From a virus: a DNA stretch of 48,637 nucleotides. Positions 5,326 through 18,392 of the stretch are shown here, in pieces (the stretch's first letter is position 1; each line of letters opens with the position of its first letter). The position numbers and the translations under genes are program-made. Under the pieces are notes generated by a model, which saw only the letters and a program-made list of their open reading frames with translations, searched no databases and was not told the origin of the DNA. The DNA is taken from IMG/VR virus record IMGVR_UViG_3300033996_001711, positions 1 to 48,637 of that record. One strand, written 5' to 3'.

Positions 5326-6060
5326 ATGACCGTCCTTGAAAAGAGCCCCTATTCAGCAATGATCGCCAAGAAGCGCCCCTGGCAAGCCACGCCAGTGGAC
5401 AATTCGCCTGTGAAGGAAGGCGCTGAATCCACGCTTTTCAAGACCATTGCTTTGCGCCACCTTGAACTGCCCGTGAAGGACTTGCTTGAGCAAGGCTTAC
5501 AGAAGGAACTGCCTTCCACTCCTGGCATCATTGAGGCGTTGCGCTCCAACCAGAAGGATGAAGAGCGTCATGATGAAGCGCTGAACTATGTTGCTGCCGC
5601 CTATGGCACTGACGAGAAGGCAGAGCGAGAAGTGCAAAACATCTTGAAGGTGTGGATGGAGCACCCCGCCCATCCAATTCATAAAGTGTCCATTATTGAG
5701 CGTTCTATCTTCTTCGTTGCCCTGCCGTTCTTCCGCTTCAATGGCAACATCGGCATGCGCACGGTGTCAGCAGACATTAGCCGTGACGAGCAAGTGCATT
5801 GTGGCGTTCATGGTTTGGTGGCCAAGGAACTGGGCGAAACGGAAACGGAAAGCCTTAATAAGCTGCGCATTGCCACTGCTGGCTGGCTGTTTGAGCACTT
5901 GGGCAAGAGCGATGATCAATGGCTCGACAAAAACGCTTGGATGCAGCGCTCTGAGCGCCTGTTCTGGGAAGGAAAGGCTTCTGGCATGGAAGACTCCCGT
6001 CGTAGCCGTCAAATCGCGTTCTTTGAAAGTTCAAACGTAAATCTTCCATGCTATGGTTGA
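5326..6060 (+). CDS. nrdB: Ribonucleotide reductase small subunit
   Basis: A 244-residue ferritin-like subunit that generates the radical for the adjacent alpha subunit. Candidate metal ligands are E79-x-x-H82 (KDEERHD), E125 (IIERSIFF) and E155-x-x-H158 (RDEQVHC). The position four residues after H82, where E. coli has the radical Tyr122, is Leu86, so a canonical tyrosyl radical is unlikely. It is shorter than most NrdB proteins (about 340-380 aa). The C-terminal tail (SSNVNLPCYG), normally the part that docks into alpha, is partly repeated at the end of the neighbouring endonuclease. The start follows a pyrimidine-rich leader. Confidence 0.88.
   Translation: MTVLEKSPYSAMIAKKRPWQATPVDNSPVKEGAESTLFKTIALRHLELPVKDLLEQGLQKELPSTPGIIEALRSNQKDEERHDEALNYVAAAYGTDEKAEREVQNILKVWMEHPAHPIHKVSIIERSIFFVALPFFRFNGNIGMRTVSADISRDEQVHCGVHGLVAKELGETETESLNKLRIATAGWLFEHLGKSDDQWLDKNAWMQRSERLFWEGKASGMEDSRRSRQIAFFESSNVNLPCYG
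6034..6047 (+). repeat. 14-bp direct repeat, copy 1, in nrdB 3' end
   Basis: AACGTAAATCTTCC, encoding part of NVNLP in the nrdB tail, recurs exactly at 6727-6740. Weaker similarity continues through the stop codons (CTAtGG...TTGAC against CTAcGG...TTGAC). The two copies bracket the homing endonuclease gene. Confidence 0.85.
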
Positions 6061-6089
6061 CATTTGATTCCCTTCTTATGCTATGATTA

Positions 6090-6114
6090 CGGGGTTAACC
6101 ACCCCGTTTTTTTT
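6090..6114 (+). terminator. Intrinsic terminator after nrdB, touching the HNH start
   Basis: CGGGGT (6090-6095), loop TAACC, ACCCCG (6101-6106), then eight Ts. The ATG of the endonuclease gene is the very next base (6115). Confidence 0.85.
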
Positions 6115-6756
6115 ATGGAAGAAATCTGGAAACCTATTCCTGGCTACGAAAATTTATACGAAGCCTCAAGCTTGGGTAATATTAGATCTGTAGACAGGAC
6201 TGTTTTAGATGAGCGAAATCAGAAGCAGCGCACGCGCACATTCAGGGGGAGACAATTGTCCCCAAATATCAATAAAGATAGCGGCCGTCATTCTGTCATG
6301 CTTTCTAAAGAAGGAAAGACAAAAAGATTCACAGTCGCTCGTTTAATTTGCCTGGCTTTTCATGGCTTGCCTCCAGAAGGGAAAAATTTAGTATTGCATT
6401 ATGACGACATTCATACAAATAATATGCCAGAAAACTTAAGGTGGGGCAATCACTTGGAAAATCTAGAAGATTGCGTTCGCAATAGAGGCTCTCATCCCCG
6501 TTACATTGATGGCAGAAGCAATCGCAAGAGAGGACCAGTCGGGGGCGCCATCTTAAATGAGTATCAAGTAAGAGTGTTGAGGCGACTTCCTGACCTACGC
6601 TCACTGCGAGGGTTGAGGGAAGACCTGGCCGAAGAGTGGGGAGTCGCTCCTTCTAGCATATCCAGCGCCAAATACAAACAAACAGCGTGGAACACGCTAT
6701 CTCCTGTGCCGCTATGGGAAATCGCCAACGTAAATCTTCCTTCCTACGGCTCTTGA
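6115..6756 (+). CDS. NUMOD4-HNH homing endonuclease
   Basis: The 213-residue protein starts MEEIWKPIPGYENLYEASS, a clear NUMOD4 DNA-binding motif followed by LGNIRSVDR. Next comes an HNH core of the HNH_3 type (LICLAFHGLPPEGKNLVLHY, DDIHTNNMPENLRWGN), then a helical DNA-contacting region (EEWGVAPSSISSAKYK). Such enzymes nick or cut alleles lacking them and spread by repair. The last residues, ANVNLPSYGS, duplicate the nrdB tail NVNLPCYG, so the gene appears to have inserted at the 3' end of nrdB and carries a copy of it. A TTG start at 6064 is possible but lies before the terminator. Confidence 0.88.
   Translation: MEEIWKPIPGYENLYEASSLGNIRSVDRTVLDERNQKQRTRTFRGRQLSPNINKDSGRHSVMLSKEGKTKRFTVARLICLAFHGLPPEGKNLVLHYDDIHTNNMPENLRWGNHLENLEDCVRNRGSHPRYIDGRSNRKRGPVGGAILNEYQVRVLRRLPDLRSLRGLREDLAEEWGVAPSSISSAKYKQTAWNTLSPVPLWEIANVNLPSYGS
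6727..6740 (+). repeat. 14-bp direct repeat, copy 2, at HNH gene 3' end
   Basis: Exact second copy of AACGTAAATCTTCC (first copy 6034-6047), read in the same frame as NVNLP. Spacing between copies is 693 bp, which defines the probable mobile unit. Confidence 0.85.
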
Positions 6757-6762
6757 CGCTGT

Positions 6763-6800
6763 GGGGCTTCCGCTATTGCTACATCGGAAGCCCCGCTTTT
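6763..6800 (+). terminator. Strong intrinsic terminator
   Basis: GGGGCTTCCG (6763-6772) pairs with CGGAAGCCCC (6785-6794), a perfect 10-bp stem with a 12-nt loop, then GCTTTT. It closes the nrd-endonuclease unit. Confidence 0.85.
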
Positions 6801-6859
6801 CCCGCATAGAAAGCCCCGTCTTTCTTGTCTAGAGTTGATTAAAGACTTCTTCAAAAGCC

Positions 6860-7072
6860 GTGGGCGAGCGCAGGACGTTTGACACCCCCATTCGCTGCAA
6901 ATGGAACGCGCCCATTCATAATTTATTGAAAGCCATTGATAATCACACTGAATTATTTCTTCTCCATGGAGACCCTTGGCATGCCAAAAAGGCAGCAGAA
7001 CTCAGGGCTTATGTTCACGAACTAAAAACTTGGATTCACAAAGAAGAACAAAATACCCTTGGTCAGATTTGA
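6860..7072 (+). CDS. Small helical protein, 70 aa
   Basis: Starting at GTG 6860, the protein reads FDTPIRCKWNAPIHNLLKAI, then HGDPWHAKKAAELRAYVHEL, and ends KEEQNTLGQI. The regular hydrophobic spacing and the HGDPWHAKKA segment look like a conserved small protein, and similar short proteins are found in cyanophages as far as I recall; the function is unknown. Its last six codons and stop overlap the 3' half of the minus-strand tRNA by 19 bp, so transcription of the two genes is antisense. It follows a strong terminator, so it needs its own promoter or read-through. Confidence 0.6.
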   Translation: MGERRTFDTPIRCKWNAPIHNLLKAIDNHTELFLLHGDPWHAKKAAELRAYVHELKTWIHKEEQNTLGQI

Positions 7073-7127
7073 ACTGACACTTGTCTGAGCTTAAATCAGA
7101 TGCCTCTTCCTATTGGGCTACAAGGGC
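7054..7127 (-). tRNA. tRNA-Leu(UAA)-like, short variable loop
   Basis: On the minus strand a full cloverleaf folds: acceptor GCCCTTG/CAAGGGT (7 bp, one G-U), D arm GCC/GGC (with a C-A mismatch at 13-22), anticodon stem TCTGA/TCAGA with loop TTTAAGC (anticodon TAA at 34-36), variable loop CAAGT, T arm GTCAG-TTCAAAT-CTGAC, discriminator A73. CCA is not encoded. Anticodon UAA reads UUA (leucine), yet bacterial tRNA-Leu normally has a long variable arm and this one has five bases. The tRNA is the last element of the minus-strand unit and overlaps the end of the plus-strand gene at 6860. Confidence 0.87.
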
Positions 7128-12572: not shown

Positions 12573-13325
12573 ATGAAAGTCCTTTTAGGAGACACTGGTT
12601 TAATTGGCAGAGTTTTGCAGCAATCTACTAACTTTGATGCCACCTTTAATTCCAGCAACATTCACGAGCTGCCGAATATTGCCAATATGCCGGGGCAAGT
12701 AGACGAGCTGTATCTTGCATGTCTGCCCGCGACGAAGTGGCTAGTTAATCAAGACCCAGCAAAAGATTTAAACAATATTCTTTCCATTGTCGATGTATTG
12801 ACGACAGTTTGGGCGACAAAAGTAATTCTTATTTCTACCATTGATATTTATCAACATACTGACTGCGGAGCAAGTGAAGACTTTTGGACACATTTTGGCC
12901 CATTGGGTTACGGCTCCAACAGGCTTCTATTTGAAACACTTATCCAAAACACGCTTGCTTTTAACACTTGCATTGTGCGGCTCCCCGCTGTCTTTCATCC
13001 GCTCATTAAAAAGAACATTTTATTTGACTTGCTTAATGATAATAATGTGGAGCAAATCAACGGCAACTCGGCCTATCAGTGGTATCCACTTAATCGTCTA
13101 TGGCAAGACATTCAATCGGTAAAAGGCGAAGGTGTAATCAATCTGTTTCCGCCTCCCATTGAAACTTTGGACATTATTGACAAGTTTTTTCCGAATGCGC
13201 AAATCGCTTCTGGGGATCGAATTTCTTACGATTACAGCACCATGGCCACGCAAAGTGGTTATTGGCTTTCCAAGGATGAAGTGATGCAAGAGATGGAGGC
13301 ATTTATCAATGAAGCTCGGAGTTAG
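12573..13325 (+). CDS. NAD-dependent sugar epimerase/dehydratase-like protein
   Basis: At 250 residues this is a compact short-chain dehydrogenase-type fold. The N-terminal MKVLLGDTGLIGRVL carries the Rossmann G-x-x-G-x-x-G-like loop. LISTIDIYQ and FGPLGYGSNRLLFE occupy the positions of the Ser/Thr and the YxxxK pair of extended SDRs, but the lysine is replaced (Y-G-S-N-R), so catalysis may be altered. It is first in the glycan island and overlaps the next gene by 17 bp. ATG 12573 is used rather than the TTG at 12564. Substrate unknown; probably an NDP-sugar. Confidence 0.65.
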   Translation: MKVLLGDTGLIGRVLQQSTNFDATFNSSNIHELPNIANMPGQVDELYLACLPATKWLVNQDPAKDLNNILSIVDVLTTVWATKVILISTIDIYQHTDCGASEDFWTHFGPLGYGSNRLLFETLIQNTLAFNTCIVRLPAVFHPLIKKNILFDLLNDNNVEQINGNSAYQWYPLNRLWQDIQSVKGEGVINLFPPPIETLDIIDKFFPNAQIASGDRISYDYSTMATQSGYWLSKDEVMQEMEAFINEARS

Positions 13326-14028
13326 CGCGATTGGCTGGGAAGCCGAGGACCATTCTGAAATCGTGCTGCATCTTCCCGATGGCATTGAACTATTAGAAGC
13401 AGTGCCTTTTAAAAGGCACAGTCGTTTTTCTGGCTGTCTACAAAAATATTCTGCTCAATCGTTGTTCTACGGCATGGACATTGATGCGTTTTGGAATGAA
13501 CAGGCTTTTGATCTGTGCTTGGCAAAGTTAATAGCAATGGCGCAAAAATATGAATGGAAAAGAATGGTACTTGGCAGTCCAGGGTTGCGCAAAGATGACA
13601 GGCGTTATTTAATGGACGCGCTTGCAAGAAACAACGATGCGCTTGCCGCCATTGATTGTATTGTTTGCATTGAGCCCGTGGCTAAGCCATATGGTGGTGA
13701 ATACTTTTTCACGGTTGAAGAAATTGTTCAAAGCCTTGCCGAGTATTCTTTATCGCACGTAGCAACAATGATCGACACAAACAGTGCATGGCTAGAGAGT
13801 CAATGGCCAGAAGACGTGCTTCTTCAATACTTTCCATACATTAAGCATGTCCACATTAGTGACCAAAACATTGGCGCCATTATTTGCCAGGACAAGCACG
13901 AACGTTTTGCAGAGGCGTTGCGCAATACCGAGTATGAAGGCGGAGTGATTCGCGAGCTATTAAAGGCAAAAAACTATCCAGGTGAGTACGATTATTTCGC
14001 TCAAATTTACAAGCCATCCAGCATTTGA
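13309..14028 (+). CDS. Sugar isomerase/epimerase-like TIM-barrel protein
   Basis: The 239-residue sequence has the layout of the xylose-isomerase-like / AP endonuclease 2 TIM barrels: MKLGVSAIGW at the start, a strand with CIEPVAKPYGGEYF (metal-ligand Glu), TMIDTNSAWLES (Asp) and IKHVHISDQNIG (His). These proteins isomerise or epimerise sugars using a divalent metal. It overlaps the preceding epimerase by 17 bp and converges on the minus-strand FAD gene with a 22-bp 3' overlap. It is probably involved in making the sugar used by the neighbouring glycosyltransferases. Confidence 0.65.
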   Translation: MKLGVSAIGWEAEDHSEIVLHLPDGIELLEAVPFKRHSRFSGCLQKYSAQSLFYGMDIDAFWNEQAFDLCLAKLIAMAQKYEWKRMVLGSPGLRKDDRRYLMDALARNNDALAAIDCIVCIEPVAKPYGGEYFFTVEEIVQSLAEYSLSHVATMIDTNSAWLESQWPEDVLLQYFPYIKHVHISDQNIGAIICQDKHERFAEALRNTEYEGGVIRELLKAKNYPGEYDYFAQIYKPSSI

Positions 14029-14990
14029 CGCACTCGCTCTTCAATTAAGTAGATGCCTTGAATTTTGCCTGTGTAGCAAGACAGAAGATTGTCTTGCTGT
14101 TTGAATAATGGCGCTCGATAGGCACTGGCATTACTTCGCTTGCTTTTCATTGAAAGCACAATGCTGTGCTGAGAGAGATGGTTTGAAAAATCAGGCCAGT
14201 AATGACAAACGTGATTTTCTGCTTTACGTCTAAGCTGTTCCAACTGTTCCCTTGATGGTTCTTCGTTGACAGGAGCGACTGATTCCGTCGCAACGCTATG
14301 CACCACATGACTTAAAGAAACGGTGCCATCATGAAATGGATAAAAAGAAAACAATGGCCCGTCAATATAAGTAAGAGCGCCAAAAGGCAAAGGCTTTTGA
14401 ACGCTATAAAGAAACATTGCCACTGCTTCAAAGTATTCATTCTTTGATGGTTTCAATAGCGCATTATTAGTGCAATCAATTACCAAATCAAAGTCGCTTT
14501 TTAATCTTTCTACATCCTTGCTTGTAATTTCGCTTTGCTTGAACAATGGAGATAGCCGCTCAGAAAAGAATTTTTTGGCCTCTATGGGGGAAATGTAGCG
14601 CTCCTGTGTGCGCCAGACCATAGAAGTGTCACGGAGGAAGCTAGTCTCAACTTCTTCGTGTTGCCAAAGCAATGGAGGGAAAATAGTCTTAATAGTTCCA
14701 GCATCTAAAAGGCTCTCGTCCTCTGGCACTGCGTACAAATTATTTTTTACAGCATAAGTAAGTGCTCCATATTCGTGCATAAAACGATCAAAAGTGAGCC
14801 GACATAATGCGCGTGTGGCGGAATTTCTAGCGTAGTGGTAGCCAAGGTGAAGGCGGTTTTGGTTTACCAGTGAAGCGCCGTGGAATGGCTCATGCTCGCG
14901 ATCAAAAAGCGTGATGCAATATTCATTTCTAAGCTGATAGGCCAAGTGACATCCCACCCAGCCAGCTCCAATAATTGCCAAGCGTTTCAT
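14007..14990 (-). CDS. FAD-dependent oxidoreductase (DAO-like)
   Basis: MKRLAIIGAGWVGCHLAYQL is a classical dinucleotide-binding motif (GxGxxG), followed by ITLFDREHEPFHGASLVNQN (acidic end of beta-2) and a long substrate domain. At 327 aa it is close to D-amino-acid-oxidase-like proteins found in polysaccharide clusters. SFYPFHDGTVSLSHV and the C-terminal CYTGKIQGIYLIEE are typical late strands. It is on the minus strand within the plus-strand island and is translationally coupled to the upstream gene (1-bp overlap at 14990). Probable role: oxidation of a sugar or amino sugar. Confidence 0.7.
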   Translation of the reverse strand: MKRLAIIGAGWVGCHLAYQLRNEYCITLFDREHEPFHGASLVNQNRLHLGYHYARNSATRALCRLTFDRFMHEYGALTYAVKNNLYAVPEDESLLDAGTIKTIFPPLLWQHEEVETSFLRDTSMVWRTQERYISPIEAKKFFSERLSPLFKQSEITSKDVERLKSDFDLVIDCTNNALLKPSKNEYFEAVAMFLYSVQKPLPFGALTYIDGPLFSFYPFHDGTVSLSHVVHSVATESVAPVNEEPSREQLEQLRRKAENHVCHYWPDFSNHLSQHSIVLSMKSKRSNASAYRAPLFKQQDNLLSCYTGKIQGIYLIEERVRQMLDGL

Positions 14991-15685
14991 TAAATGTCAA
15001 TACAAAGGTGAGGTTGAACGCCTTGCCAATTACTTTTTGCTTTGGCTAGGTCCAATTGAGGGAAGTATTCAATGCGGCGTTGTGAGCCAGTGCCATACGG
15101 GTCGGCGTGCCCCTGGTAATTCCACTCGTCAGGGCCATGACTATCTAGATGGTAAACATGGCAATGTGCGTCTTGGAGTTTCCAAAGCATGTAATCCTCG
15201 TTTGGCACTCCCCATTGCTTCCACTGTTGAAGTGCTTCTGGAGAGCTGTCCATGTTTTTGATGGCCATTAAGCGATCTCGATGCTGCATGAGATAGTCGT
15301 GGCGATACAGGCCAATACTCATTGACGGCGTGTATTTCATTGCAACCTTTTCTGGTGCATCCACAGGAGGCTCATAGGCTAATTGCTTAAAGGCCGCGCC
15401 TGCAATGCAGGTGTCATGCAGAAGGAACCAATATTCGCTTTCCATGGATTGCTCAACAATTTCAATGAGCGGGGTGTATTCAAAAGAATTTTGCTGCGTT
15501 AGCAACATTGGAACGCCTTCGCAGTCTGTCAAAGTATGAGCAGTCTGTCCACCATTCACAATTAATATTTCCTCTGGTTCGATACCAGCCGCAAGCAAGC
15601 TTGGAATAATTACTGGAATGGTATGGGGCGCAAACTTTTTGCAAGTACTGATACAGAAGCGAATCGAGCCCTCTGGAAGTGCCAT
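14990..15685 (-). CDS. Putative glycosyltransferase-like protein
   Basis: The 231-residue protein opens FCISTCKKFAPHTIPVIIPS, resembling the first strand of a GT-A fold, then ILIVNGGQTAH. ESEYWFLLHDTCIAG has a buried strand ending in HDT, where GT-A enzymes have DxD, and GVPNEDYMLWKL resembles the ED motif near the acceptor site. No clear family can be named. It is the first gene of the two-gene minus-strand operon with the FAD enzyme and diverges from the GT4 gene across a 61-bp gap. Confidence 0.5.
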   Translation of the reverse strand: MALPEGSIRFCISTCKKFAPHTIPVIIPSLLAAGIEPEEILIVNGGQTAHTLTDCEGVPMLLTQQNSFEYTPLIEIVEQSMESEYWFLLHDTCIAGAAFKQLAYEPPVDAPEKVAMKYTPSMSIGLYRHDYLMQHRDRLMAIKNMDSSPEALQQWKQWGVPNEDYMLWKLQDAHCHVYHLDSHGPDEWNYQGHADPYGTGSQRRIEYFPQLDLAKAKSNWQGVQPHLCIDI

Positions 15686-15746
15686 TTAGTCCCCTTTTGT
15701 CATCAGTATAAAAGCCCACTAGGATGGCGAAGATTCACGAAGGATT

Positions 15747-16970
15747 ATGGCTCGCGTTCTTTATTGCGGTGACGCATTCGTTCAAACGGGCTTTGGACGA
15801 GTGGCTGAATACCTGCTCCCTGCGCTTGCTGAGAAGCACGAAGTGCATGTGCTCGCCACTAATTACCATGGCGACCACGATGAGGAGGCCATTAAATACA
15901 AAACTTACCCAGCCATGGTGCATGGCTCCGACCCATTTGGCGGCCATCGTATTGCCGAACTAGTTCAAACCATTAAGCCTGATCTCGTATGGGTGACGAA
16001 TGATCTGTGGGTGGCTATTAACTTGTGGGGGGCAGTAAAGACTCTCAGGGAAACAATTCCCTTTAAATTTTTTGTATATACGCCCATTGACAGCTATGGC
16101 ATTTTCCCTGAGCTAAATGGTCCAGTGAGCGAATGGGATGGACTCGCCACTTACACAGAATTTGGCAAAGAAGAGCTAGTCAAGATGGGCTATGAAAAGC
16201 CTATCGCCGTCATTCCACATGGCACGGACTTCACTAAATTCTTCCCCATTGACCCTCTTGAATGCCGCAAGGAGCTAGGCGTGCCAGGGGATACGTTTAT
16301 TGTCTTCAATGGCAATAGGAACCAACCACGCAAGCGCATTGACTTGACCATTAAAGGCTTCGTTGAATTTGCCAAGGACAAGCCTGACGCTCGCCTGTGG
16401 CTAAATATGGGAGCTAAGGATATGGGCTGGGAGTTGATTCCATTGTTTAAGCGCGTGGCGCGTGATGCAGGGTATGACGCTGCTGGCAAGCTTATTCTCA
16501 CTAGCCCGCATTTCTCCACGCATAACTGCCTTCCCATTGAACAATTGAACAAGGTTTACAACTCTGTTGATATTGGCCTAAACACCTGCATAGGCGAAGG
16601 ATGGGGCCTGGTGAACAGTGAGCACGCTGCTACAGGCGTTGCGCAAGTAGTACCCGACCACACAAGTCTTAAGGAGATTTTTAATGACATTCCACGCATC
16701 GCTTGTAACGGTTCCGAAACTGATAGAAACTATGGTTTAGAGCGTTTACTGCCTGACCCCAGTAGCGTTGCTGACATCCTTAATTACTACTACGAGGATC
16801 GTAATGCTTTGAAGGCTGCTGGTAATTGGTGCTACGAGCGCATTCACGAAAAGCAATTCACCTGGCCTGTCATCACCAAAAAGATGTTGCGCATCGTAAA
16901 TGAAGTGCTTAATCAAAAGCCAAGTGATCAAGAGTTTAAAGGTTTTGGCACCCCCGCAAAAATTGTTTAA
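15747..16970 (+). CDS. Glycosyltransferase, GT4-like (GT-B fold)
   Basis: A 407-residue GT-B enzyme. The N-terminal domain begins MARVLYCGDAFVQTGFGRVA; the linker PIAVIPHGTDFTKFFPID is the hallmark strand before the second domain, and NGNRNQPRKRIDLTIKGFVE is the donor-domain KR motif. NTCIGEGWGLVNSEHAATGV is the conserved E-x7-E region that binds the nucleotide sugar. Length is normal for the family. It has a GAAGGA 3-8 nt before its ATG. With the genes that follow it forms a plus-strand glycosyltransferase operon. Confidence 0.85.
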   Translation: MARVLYCGDAFVQTGFGRVAEYLLPALAEKHEVHVLATNYHGDHDEEAIKYKTYPAMVHGSDPFGGHRIAELVQTIKPDLVWVTNDLWVAINLWGAVKTLRETIPFKFFVYTPIDSYGIFPELNGPVSEWDGLATYTEFGKEELVKMGYEKPIAVIPHGTDFTKFFPIDPLECRKELGVPGDTFIVFNGNRNQPRKRIDLTIKGFVEFAKDKPDARLWLNMGAKDMGWELIPLFKRVARDAGYDAAGKLILTSPHFSTHNCLPIEQLNKVYNSVDIGLNTCIGEGWGLVNSEHAATGVAQVVPDHTSLKEIFNDIPRIACNGSETDRNYGLERLLPDPSSVADILNYYYEDRNALKAAGNWCYERIHEKQFTWPVITKKMLRIVNEVLNQKPSDQEFKGFGTPAKIV

Positions 16971-16975
16971 TCATC

Positions 16976-17689
16976 ATGCAAGTATCACAAATTTTTCTTT
17001 CTGATAACGGCGCCGAACTGTCACCATTCCTAGGACACGCCACGGGCACTGTACGTCAAGCATTTCCTGACGCAGACCATCACATTTACACCAAGGAAAC
17101 CCTTCGCGCCTTCATTGAAGCTAACTATTCAGGGGAAGTGCTATGGGCCTACGACTGTCTAAAGCCCTATTCGTATAAAGCTGATCTTGGCAGGTTTTGC
17201 TTGTTGAATAAGCTTGGAGGGTGGTACATGGACATTGCCGTCAGAATGGTAAATCCAGTGGAGGTGGGAGATCGTATTGAATTTTTGGCCTTCCGCGATA
17301 TTCAACGATTTAGCTACACCACTTGGGCCTGCGCGACCACTGTTCTTTATTCAAAGCCCGACAACATAGCACTGACTACTGCCATTGAAATGATTGTCAA
17401 CAACTGTCACGAACAGTACTACGGAATCACTCCATTGTGCCCCACTGGCCCAACATTACTAGGAGCAGCTCTTGCTGCAAATGGCGGCAATGCCAATTTC
17501 GTCTACGGCGATTATCTAGAACTGACACCCACGCACGAACAAAAGAATCGTGCCTTTGTGCTGCCCGATGGCACGATCATGGCGTGGAGCAAGCCTTCGG
17601 GAGGGGGCGACTTGACTGGCGTTGGGGCCAAGGGTGTAAACAATTACAACGAACTTTGGGCTGCGAGGCAGGTATATGCAACCGTCTGA
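16976..17689 (+). CDS. Glycosyltransferase, GT32-like (DxD sugar-binding)
   Basis: The segment LKPYSYKADLGRFCLLNKLG followed by GWYMDIAV is the DxD-type motif of the GT32 / OCH1-like family (usually KaDllRy...GGvYlDlD); here the acidic pair is reduced to MDI. PLCPTGPTLLGAAL is the second conserved block of the family. It lies 5 bp after the GT4 gene and its end overlaps the next gene by 14 bp. Probable role: adding a hexose to the glycan built by this island. Confidence 0.75.
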   Translation: MQVSQIFLSDNGAELSPFLGHATGTVRQAFPDADHHIYTKETLRAFIEANYSGEVLWAYDCLKPYSYKADLGRFCLLNKLGGWYMDIAVRMVNPVEVGDRIEFLAFRDIQRFSYTTWACATTVLYSKPDNIALTTAIEMIVNNCHEQYYGITPLCPTGPTLLGAALAANGGNANFVYGDYLELTPTHEQKNRAFVLPDGTIMAWSKPSGGGDLTGVGAKGVNNYNELWAARQVYATV

Positions 17690-18392
17690 TTGCGCAATTT
17701 ATGCCGTGTGCATTCCTGGCGAAGAAGTGCGTTACCAAGCGCAGTCTCAAATTATTCCCATCATGGGAGGAAGTTATAGTCTTAATGAAAAAGAACGAGA
17801 AAAGTTGCGACTAAAGGGTTACGCTTTTGACGATGAAAACGCTGACTATTCCTCCTTGAATAAATATTGGGGGGAGCTGTCTTGTATTCATTGGATGCTT
17901 AAAAATGCAAAACAAAGTAATATCGGAAATGCTCAATATCGGCGCAACTGGATAGAGCCAGCGGAGATTTGGTATGTAAAAGATACTTTATATGTGCCAG
18001 AATTTGCAGAGTTTAGCTGCAGCCTTGAGCAGCAATTTTATGGCGGACACTCGGGCTTTGATGCACCTGCTATCACGAAAGAGCTGGCGGATAGTGGCGC
18101 ATGGGTATTTACCAGAGAAGAGATTGATAAGCTGTGGGCTCAAAATTTATTCATTGGTTGCAACATGGCGCGTGGCCCGAGGATTCATTATCAATTATTC
18201 ATGGAAACATTATTCACCTGTTTGTCACCTATATGGAGCCGATACAAGGAGCGCTTTCTTTCTATTGATGGTTATGACAAGCGTGCCTTAGCCTTTATAG
18301 CTGAACGATTGATAACAGGCCTGGTGCTATATCGCGACAAATTCTTCCCTAATATGAAAATTGAAACAGCCCCAATAGGCTTTATTTCTTAG
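17676..18392 (+). CDS. DUF4422-like glycosyltransferase
   Basis: A 238-residue protein with several DUF4422 landmarks: YSSLNKYWGELSCIHWMLKN near the N-terminus, QYRRNW, EQQFYGGHSGF in the middle, and NLFIGCNMARGPRIHYQLF followed by a late RALAFIAERLITGLVLY. DUF4422 proteins are GT-A-like transferases found in capsular and O-antigen clusters. It is the last gene of the island, with 15 bp before the next head-associated gene. Translation probably reinitiates from the overlapping GT32 gene. Confidence 0.7.
   Translation: MQPSDCAIYAVCIPGEEVRYQAQSQIIPIMGGSYSLNEKEREKLRLKGYAFDDENADYSSLNKYWGELSCIHWMLKNAKQSNIGNAQYRRNWIEPAEIWYVKDTLYVPEFAEFSCSLEQQFYGGHSGFDAPAITKELADSGAWVFTREEIDKLWAQNLFIGCNMARGPRIHYQLFMETLFTCLSPIWSRYKERFLSIDGYDKRALAFIAERLITGLVLYRDKFFPNMKIETAPIGFIS

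Follow-up and report, generated by a model that had tools for sequence, protein, structure and literature searches.

A homing-endonuclease element that very probably occupies the last codons of cyanophage nrdB by exchanging the C-terminal end of the gene

The nrdB locus and its features

The window, that is, the whole stretch of DNA that was analysed, is a 48.6-kb virus record of IMG/VR, the nearest isolate being Synechococcus phage S-CBS4. The features of its nrdB locus are listed in Table 1. The identity of NrdB rests on the PHROG and RefSeq names, with the window protein matching PHROG 6799 'ribonucleotide reductase class Ia beta subunit' at an E-value of 2e-104 and being 46-69% identical to the NrdB proteins annotated in cyanophages in RefSeq, because the profile search of the PDB gave matches to the beta subunit of ribonucleotide reductase (RNR) that are all sub-threshold. 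Despite the insertion, the nrdB frame is uninterrupted and has the full length found in the relatives, with the protein ending in ...FFESSNVNLPCYG. The protein of the gene behind it ends in ...WEIANVNLPSYGS and matches NUMOD4 (E-value 4e-17) and HNH_3 (1e-6) in Pfam, both above the cut-off. In the alignment of the family the HNH_3 residues H95, D97, D98, N102, N103, N107, W110 and N116 are invariant. The AlphaFold model of the nuclease is of low confidence (mean pLDDT 54.9, below 50 in the C-terminal part) and was set aside.

Table 1. Positions of the features at the nrdB locus of the window
Feature	Position	Strand	Remarks
nrdB	5326..6060	+	class I ribonucleotide reductase beta subunit, Cyano SP type; 244 aa
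Upstream tail NVNLPCYG-stop	6034..6060	+	differs from SYGS/SYGAA of empty relatives
14-bp direct repeat AACGTAAATCTTCC, first copy	6034..6047	+	exact match
Extended -10-like element TGCTATGAT	6079..6087	+	upstream of the nuclease in all lineages in the alignment; putative promoter
GC-rich hairpin (6089-6107) and T-run	6089..6114	+	directly before the nuclease start codon; conserved
Homing-endonuclease gene, NUMOD4 and HNH_3	6115..6756	+	213 aa; conserved start ATG at 6115
NUMOD4 domain	6121..6306	+	Pfam, residues 3-64
HNH_3 nuclease domain	6340..6462	+	Pfam, residues 76-116
14-bp direct repeat AACGTAAATCTTCC, second copy	6727..6740	+	exact match
Displaced native nrdB tail (relic) NVNLPSYGS-stop	6727..6756	+	in the nuclease frame; original stop codon of nrdB
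Native 3' flank of nrdB	6757..6810	+	shares 88% identity with the DNA that immediately follows nrdB in L008
Inverted repeat GGGGCTTCC / GGAAGCCCC and T-run	6763-6771 / 6786-6794	+	probable nrdB terminator

The first-pass annotation had noted the paired tails NVNLPCYG and NVNLPSYGS and the 14-bp repeat, and its coordinates and sequences are confirmed here. The two copies of the repeat lie 693 bp apart from start to start and are embedded in 32 nt with 78% identity. The repeat by itself is weak evidence, because under a Markov null a repeated 14-mer turns up in a 3.5-kb region in about 3% of the trials and because a second exact 14-mer pair (4710/4905) is present in the same region. With a chance repeat of equal length nearby, we rejected the DNA repeat as stand-alone proof, and it is the comparative evidence presented below that decides on the reality of the tail duplication as read from sequence. 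The 14-bp identity is peculiar to the allele of the window, the tail copies elsewhere differing in their codons.

It is noted that the allele is not an artefact of assembly, because it recurs in three further IMG/VR contigs, two of which (L005 and L006) have 3 and 0 mismatches, respectively, to the window across 6.7 kb, while the third (L088) is identical to the window in its NrdB match and in its nuclease. A group I intron carrying the endonuclease gene was also rejected, with the nrdB frame of 244 aa uninterrupted and with the Rfam search of the window giving no group I or group II intron; the earlier remark that the layout is not that of a group I intron thus holds.

Ahead of the nuclease gene, the HNH copies have in common the -10-like pattern TG.TA...T, and in a simple scan of this upstream region no strong -35 passed. 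The hairpin has seven pairs in the alignment, with 93.5% of the cells paired and lower values in the slid controls, and three of the pairs covary by changes on both sides; as a single sequence, the fold of the window hairpin is not exceptional (z of -0.63). The hairpin may act in a terminator-like manner or in translational control. An RNA starting about 7 nt behind TATGAT (6082-6087) would begin within the 5' arm of the hairpin, so that the hairpin would form in the RNA reading through from nrdB but not in that from the internal promoter. The expression of the homing-endonuclease genes (HEGs) of the T4 type is controlled by such a hairpin arrangement (PMC2988022), which the succession of TGCTATGAT, covarying hairpin and T-run before the nuclease start appears to resemble.

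Elsewhere in the window, a tRNA-Leu(TAA) gene lies on the minus strand at 7054-7127, with a comparable position in several relatives, and a block of the sugar/glycosylation type, composed of a xylose-isomerase-like protein, an FAD oxidoreductase, several glycosyltransferases and a DUF4422 protein, lies amid the head genes at 13309-18392.

Native and imported tails in related phages

In class I RNR the tail of NrdB is essential for docking, with tail peptides of the beta subunit binding to alpha. Among the cyanophage sequences, the motif N..LP.Y is kept in 52 of the 52 distinct HEG-free tails examined; that empty relatives might lack the NVNLP tail had been named beforehand as an outcome against the insertion. 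In 12 of 12 divergent NrdB proteins L240, P241 and Y243 are invariant, the only invariant residues of the tail being these L, P and Y, which is consistent with a tail that NrdB needs.

The native tail of the window can be recognized from the empty allele L008, with 96% NrdB identity, where nrdB runs into NVNLPSYGS-stop and then into the terminator region, and where positions 703-789 correspond to 6725-6810 of the window, i.e., to the sequence behind the nuclease. Since both the tail and the terminator of L008 match the distal copy of the window, the distal copy is the native one and NVNLPCYG is a replacement. This bears out the first-pass reading that the insertion re-created the tail upstream and left the old end fused to the endonuclease. 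The upstream tail of the window would have arrived with the element, and in sister lineages an imported left border, CCTATGTATTCTTAGAGA, is directly seen. Note that the closest relative of the window, L009 (97% identity in DNA and 99% in NrdB), has a different 3' flank, so that the stand-in for the empty parent of the window is L008 (about 89%) rather than a near-identical genome.

Between nrdB and the phosphoesterase gene of L009 (4040-4590) there is no NUMOD4-HNH gene; another HNH-like ORF (CCGHE...CHIVPSSLGG) lies there, and the spot behind nrdB is therefore a site of nuclease turnover. The calcineurin-like phosphoesterase gene itself lies behind nrdB in L007, L008, L009 and S-CBS4 and is deleted in the window and in all copies of its HEG-bearing allele, with a remnant of about the last dozen codons (LIKDFFKSRGRA) in the window near 6832-6867, within the segment 6811-6870. 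In another group of loci (L011, L012, L019, L026, L150 and L156) the 3' flank 'TAGTGCTATA...' and then the tRNA-like GGTTCGATTCCCAGCAGCGCCC stand just behind nrdB or the relic, ARAGORN calling tRNAs near this flank in only a few loci.

The NUMOD4-HNH family was collected by an IMG/VR search with the window nuclease. The nuclease lies directly behind nrdB in 11 of 11 lineages (the window, L089, L090, L091, L092, L094, L095, L099, L150, L155 and L156), the other 10 proteins being 59-65% identical to that of the window. A displaced N..LP.[YC][GS] tail is present within 75 nt of the nuclease stop in 10 of these 11 lineages versus 0 of 62 distant NUMOD4 nucleases, so that the other outcome named against the insertion, the repeat at the ends of unrelated HNH genes, did not occur in this set. 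In the 11th lineage, L092, the relic is reduced to KA, two codons, and the stop; compared with the empty phage L038, L092 is 84% identical to the left of the insert and 97% to the right, the right match starting exactly at these codons. In almost all cases the relic begins at the Asn codon of N-x-x-L-P, and the alignments place the right junction within the N-x-x-L-P codons or immediately before them. The upstream and downstream tails form pairs such as NTSLPMYS versus NTSLPSYGRA and NVNLPMYS versus NNDLPQYGRA. Where dS can be computed, the dN/dS of the nuclease is 0.04-0.06 (about 0.05), which by this measure indicates strong purifying selection on the nuclease. A bacterial source was rejected, bacterial genomes holding distant relatives only (up to 41%).

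The nuclease and nrdB have different histories. NrdB groups the window with L095 (83% identity, support 100/98), whereas their nucleases are only 61% identical and the nuclease data reject the pairing (AU p of 0.023). The L095 nuclease is instead 84-86% identical in the nuclease core to those of L089, L090 and L092, with which its NrdB shares only 62-63%, and the nrdB data reject this grouping (AU p of 0.0026). Since L095 shares with L089, L090 and L092 both the nuclease and the left border CCTATGTATTCTTAGAGA, composed of the PMYS-stop codons and the bases downstream, the tail end and the nuclease move together. The identity matrices and AU tests thus argue that the nuclease spreads horizontally and independently of the host gene. 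The nuclease tree itself has modest internal support and no starred branches, with the window on a long branch.

A natural pair with and without an insert comes from cultured phages and involves a second nuclease family. In phage S-B28 a gene of the endonuclease VII type stands behind nrdB and is followed by the relic SNVNLPQYA-stop, and this insert is absent from the isolates 7B11-B and WH11-B. The nucleases of S-B28 and L018 match Pfam PF02945 Endonuclease_7 (E-values 3e-25 and 3e-24) and thus have the catalytic domain of the DHHRN/F-CphI-like homing endonucleases, that of S-B28 being of the F-CphI type (PMC6083498). Between S-B28 and 7B11-B, nrdB is identical over nt 1-639 and differs at 27 positions in the last 78 nt, the swapped 78 nt in S-B28 having 11 synonymous and 6 nonsynonymous codons. 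Behind the S-B28 nuclease the native end AGTAATGTCAACCTCCCCCAATACGCTTAG is unchanged with respect to 7B11-B, and the flanks differ by only 2 mismatches in 1.65 kb downstream and 9 in 2.1 kb upstream. This looks like one recent conversion event that brought in a foreign 3' end of nrdB together with the nuclease and had its right junction in the tail codons. The gene next to nrdB in 7B11-B starts within the nrdB tail, which may explain why the relic was retained in S-B28.

Among the other loci with this nuclease type, L322 has a nuclease 62% identical to that of S-B28 and has the imported DNRNLP tail motif in common with it, and L018/L021 show a third arrangement, where the gene stands behind NVNLPAYGQG-stop and is followed by PLPSYGKA-stop and a flank matching the empty L020. 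No clear relic was seen behind the EndoVII-type genes at nrdB of L143, L322, S-CBS4, S-SRP01 and DSL-LC07.

A proposed pathway of tail exchange and its alternatives

The alignments give the native tail, the same codons as insertion point of many lineages, the co-transfer of tail and nuclease, the exact junctions of S-B28 and the scars of decay; from these we infer that the nuclease cleaves the tail codons and spreads by break repair, i.e., by homing. We consider it highly probable that a homing-endonuclease element resides in the final codons of an essential phage gene by exchanging the C-terminal end of that gene. Based on this proposal, the nuclease would cut nrdB in co-infecting phages that have no HEG there, close to the conserved N-x-x-L-P-x-Y codons, and the repair of the break would copy in the 3' end of the donor nrdB with its own tail and stop, the promoter, the hairpin and the nuclease gene. 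With the right junction at the N-x-x-L-P codons, as seen in the sequences, the native tail of the recipient is pushed behind the nuclease as a relic, which is probably non-functional, while NrdB stays at full length with a foreign tail that presumably works. As the insert splits the halves of the target, the filled allele should resist cleavage by the nuclease that it encodes. The nuclease would later decay by internal deletion, with the imported tail staying because nrdB depends on it.

The same data could be read as ordinary mosaic recombination of cyanophages at the end of nrdB, with the nuclease as a passenger rather than the driver of the exchange. Phage genomes do recombine at gene ends, the flanks here are strongly mosaic, and the cleavage by the nuclease is itself deduced from sequence. 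However, mere recombination would not be expected to make the junctions of two unrelated nuclease families coincide at the same codons, nor to leave a relic tail in nearly all HNH cases when the great majority of the surveyed nuclease-free nrdB loci are without such relics, and a passenger is also at odds with the strong purifying selection and the conflict between the nuclease and nrdB trees. We thus regard this explanation as improbable, though the least improbable of the alternatives.

It could also be supposed that the tail was duplicated first, by slippage or unequal exchange within nrdB, and that a nuclease landed between the copies by chance, with no homing involved. The 14 identical bases shared by the window copies are what a recent local duplication would leave; in the other lineages, however, the two tails differ in codons or residues, and the same arrangement with the same nuclease is repeated in 11 lineages. 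The pair S-B28/7B11-B contradicts the supposition, since the upstream tail of S-B28 is foreign and its downstream tail is exactly that of the empty allele. The duplication-first order is accordingly rated still less probable than passive recombination.

We return to the homing element and consider its right end. In most of these genes the nuclease stop codon is supplied by the displaced tail, in various ways: the nuclease reads into the relic and stops at the own stop of nrdB in the window, L089, L090, L150 and L092; it stops at a TAA or TGA hidden out of frame in the Leu-Asn codons of the relic (CTAAAT, CTGAAC), at exactly the same position, in L091, L094, L099, L155 and L156; the S-B28 nuclease stops at the TAA inside AGTAAT; and L095 and L018 have a stop codon of their own. 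Because this usage points to an open right end, the fusion in the window would be one outcome of such an element and not evidence of a functional fusion. That NVNLPSYGS docks the nuclease on NrdA alpha, localising it to the reductase or interfering with the latter, is conceivable from the binding of beta tail peptides of class I RNR to alpha and from the intact in-frame relic of the window and L089/L090. It is nevertheless very unlikely, as the tail is in frame in a minority of the lineages only, five reading the relic out of frame, the fused relic of L150 (NTNLPSCGRA) has no Tyr, and the distant relatives of the nuclease have no such tail.

The nuclease can also be lost. In L014-016 the deletion has removed it but spared the left border, the relic and some of the promoter region, and in L126/L128/L139, L129, L130, L137/L140, L246 and L275-281 the imported tail is kept with other endpoints of the deletion, from which we conclude at the sequence level that the nuclease is lost by internal deletion leaving the imported tail in place. 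Some alleles of the deletion type could descend from donors in whose lineage the nuclease was never present; loss is favoured because a promoter remnant is retained in L014, L129, L246 and L275. This bears on the suggestion in the first-pass annotation of a ready-made repeat for clean excision, which the internal deletions do not support. An excision system restoring the empty allele is equally unlikely as the docking role: recombination across the exact repeat that brackets the insert would give a normal nrdB, and a precise excision is possible in principle, but none was seen among the loss alleles, whose endpoints vary with the left border and sometimes the relic kept, and most alleles have no long exact repeat.

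Relation to known mobile elements

Known sites of phage HEGs are introns, inteins, intergenic positions and gene-splitting positions such as that in Aeh1 nrdA (PMC2988022, PMC10448857), and a survey of phage RNR genes, in the part available, records splits and no end replacement (PMC3653736). In the open-licence literature no phage precedent was found for the replacement of a C-terminus by an HEG. Whether homing by tail exchange constitutes a distinct and recurrent lifestyle of phage HEGs besides introns, inteins and intergenic sites, in which unrelated nucleases converge on an essential gene at its 3' end, bring a substitute C-terminus on their left side, keep an open right end with the stop supplied by the target and leave a host gene that can no longer do without the imported tail, is a question on which we are evenly divided. 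The exchange explains the odd paired C-termini in cyanophage genomes and makes the C-terminus of the reductase tradable between phages by a selfish gene. The cultured S-B28 with the insert and the empty 7B11-B and WH11-B offer a direct test system for the homing, the target recognition and the cost of the foreign tail.

Among phage systems, the free-standing HEGs such as the T4 seg/mob genes and F-CphI home without an intron (PMC2988022, PMC6083498). As in these, the nuclease here lies beside a conserved gene, is present or absent in related phages with co-conversion of the flanks, is polymorphic at a fixed site (L008 versus the window, S-B28 versus 7B11-B) and has domains of the homing type (NUMOD4 and HNH_3). 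By contrast, those genes lie between genes or near an intron, whereas the insert here is within the reading frame, whose end it replaces. An HNH homing endonuclease within a phage gene with neither intron nor intein is exemplified by mobE in Aeh1 nrdA and mobA in T4 gene 60 (PMC2988022). Aeh1 mobE is alike in being an intron- and intein-free insertion in a ribonucleotide reductase gene, and a further likeness is expression control of the hairpin type, which is putative here; mobE and mobA differ in that the gene is split into coding pieces, while here nrdB persists as a single intact chain and the old piece is given up.

The closest likeness is to mobile ORFs of mitochondria that replace the C-termini of genes, i.e., atp6 of Allomyces macrogynus and atp6, atp9, cox2 and nad3 of Glomus sp. 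(PMC3630166). There too an essential gene has an endonuclease ORF in its 3' end and is made complete by a divergent C-terminus that was imported, its native one stands behind the ORF and agrees with the empty relative (as found here with L008 and S-B28), and some of the ORFs are in phase with the gene, as here. The differences are that those ORFs are mitochondrial and of the LAGLIDADG/GIY-YIG types, whereas the nucleases here are from phages and of the NUMOD4-HNH and EndoVII-like types, and that the phage element has a swapped end of a few codons to 26 codons, a conserved putative promoter and hairpin, and a nuclease stop derived from the relic. A route known from fungal mitochondria, by which an HEG survives inside a reading frame by replacing the end of the gene, thus appears in phages, and judged from its sequence the phage element works like a mitochondrial C-terminal-replacing ORF and is not a member of that group.
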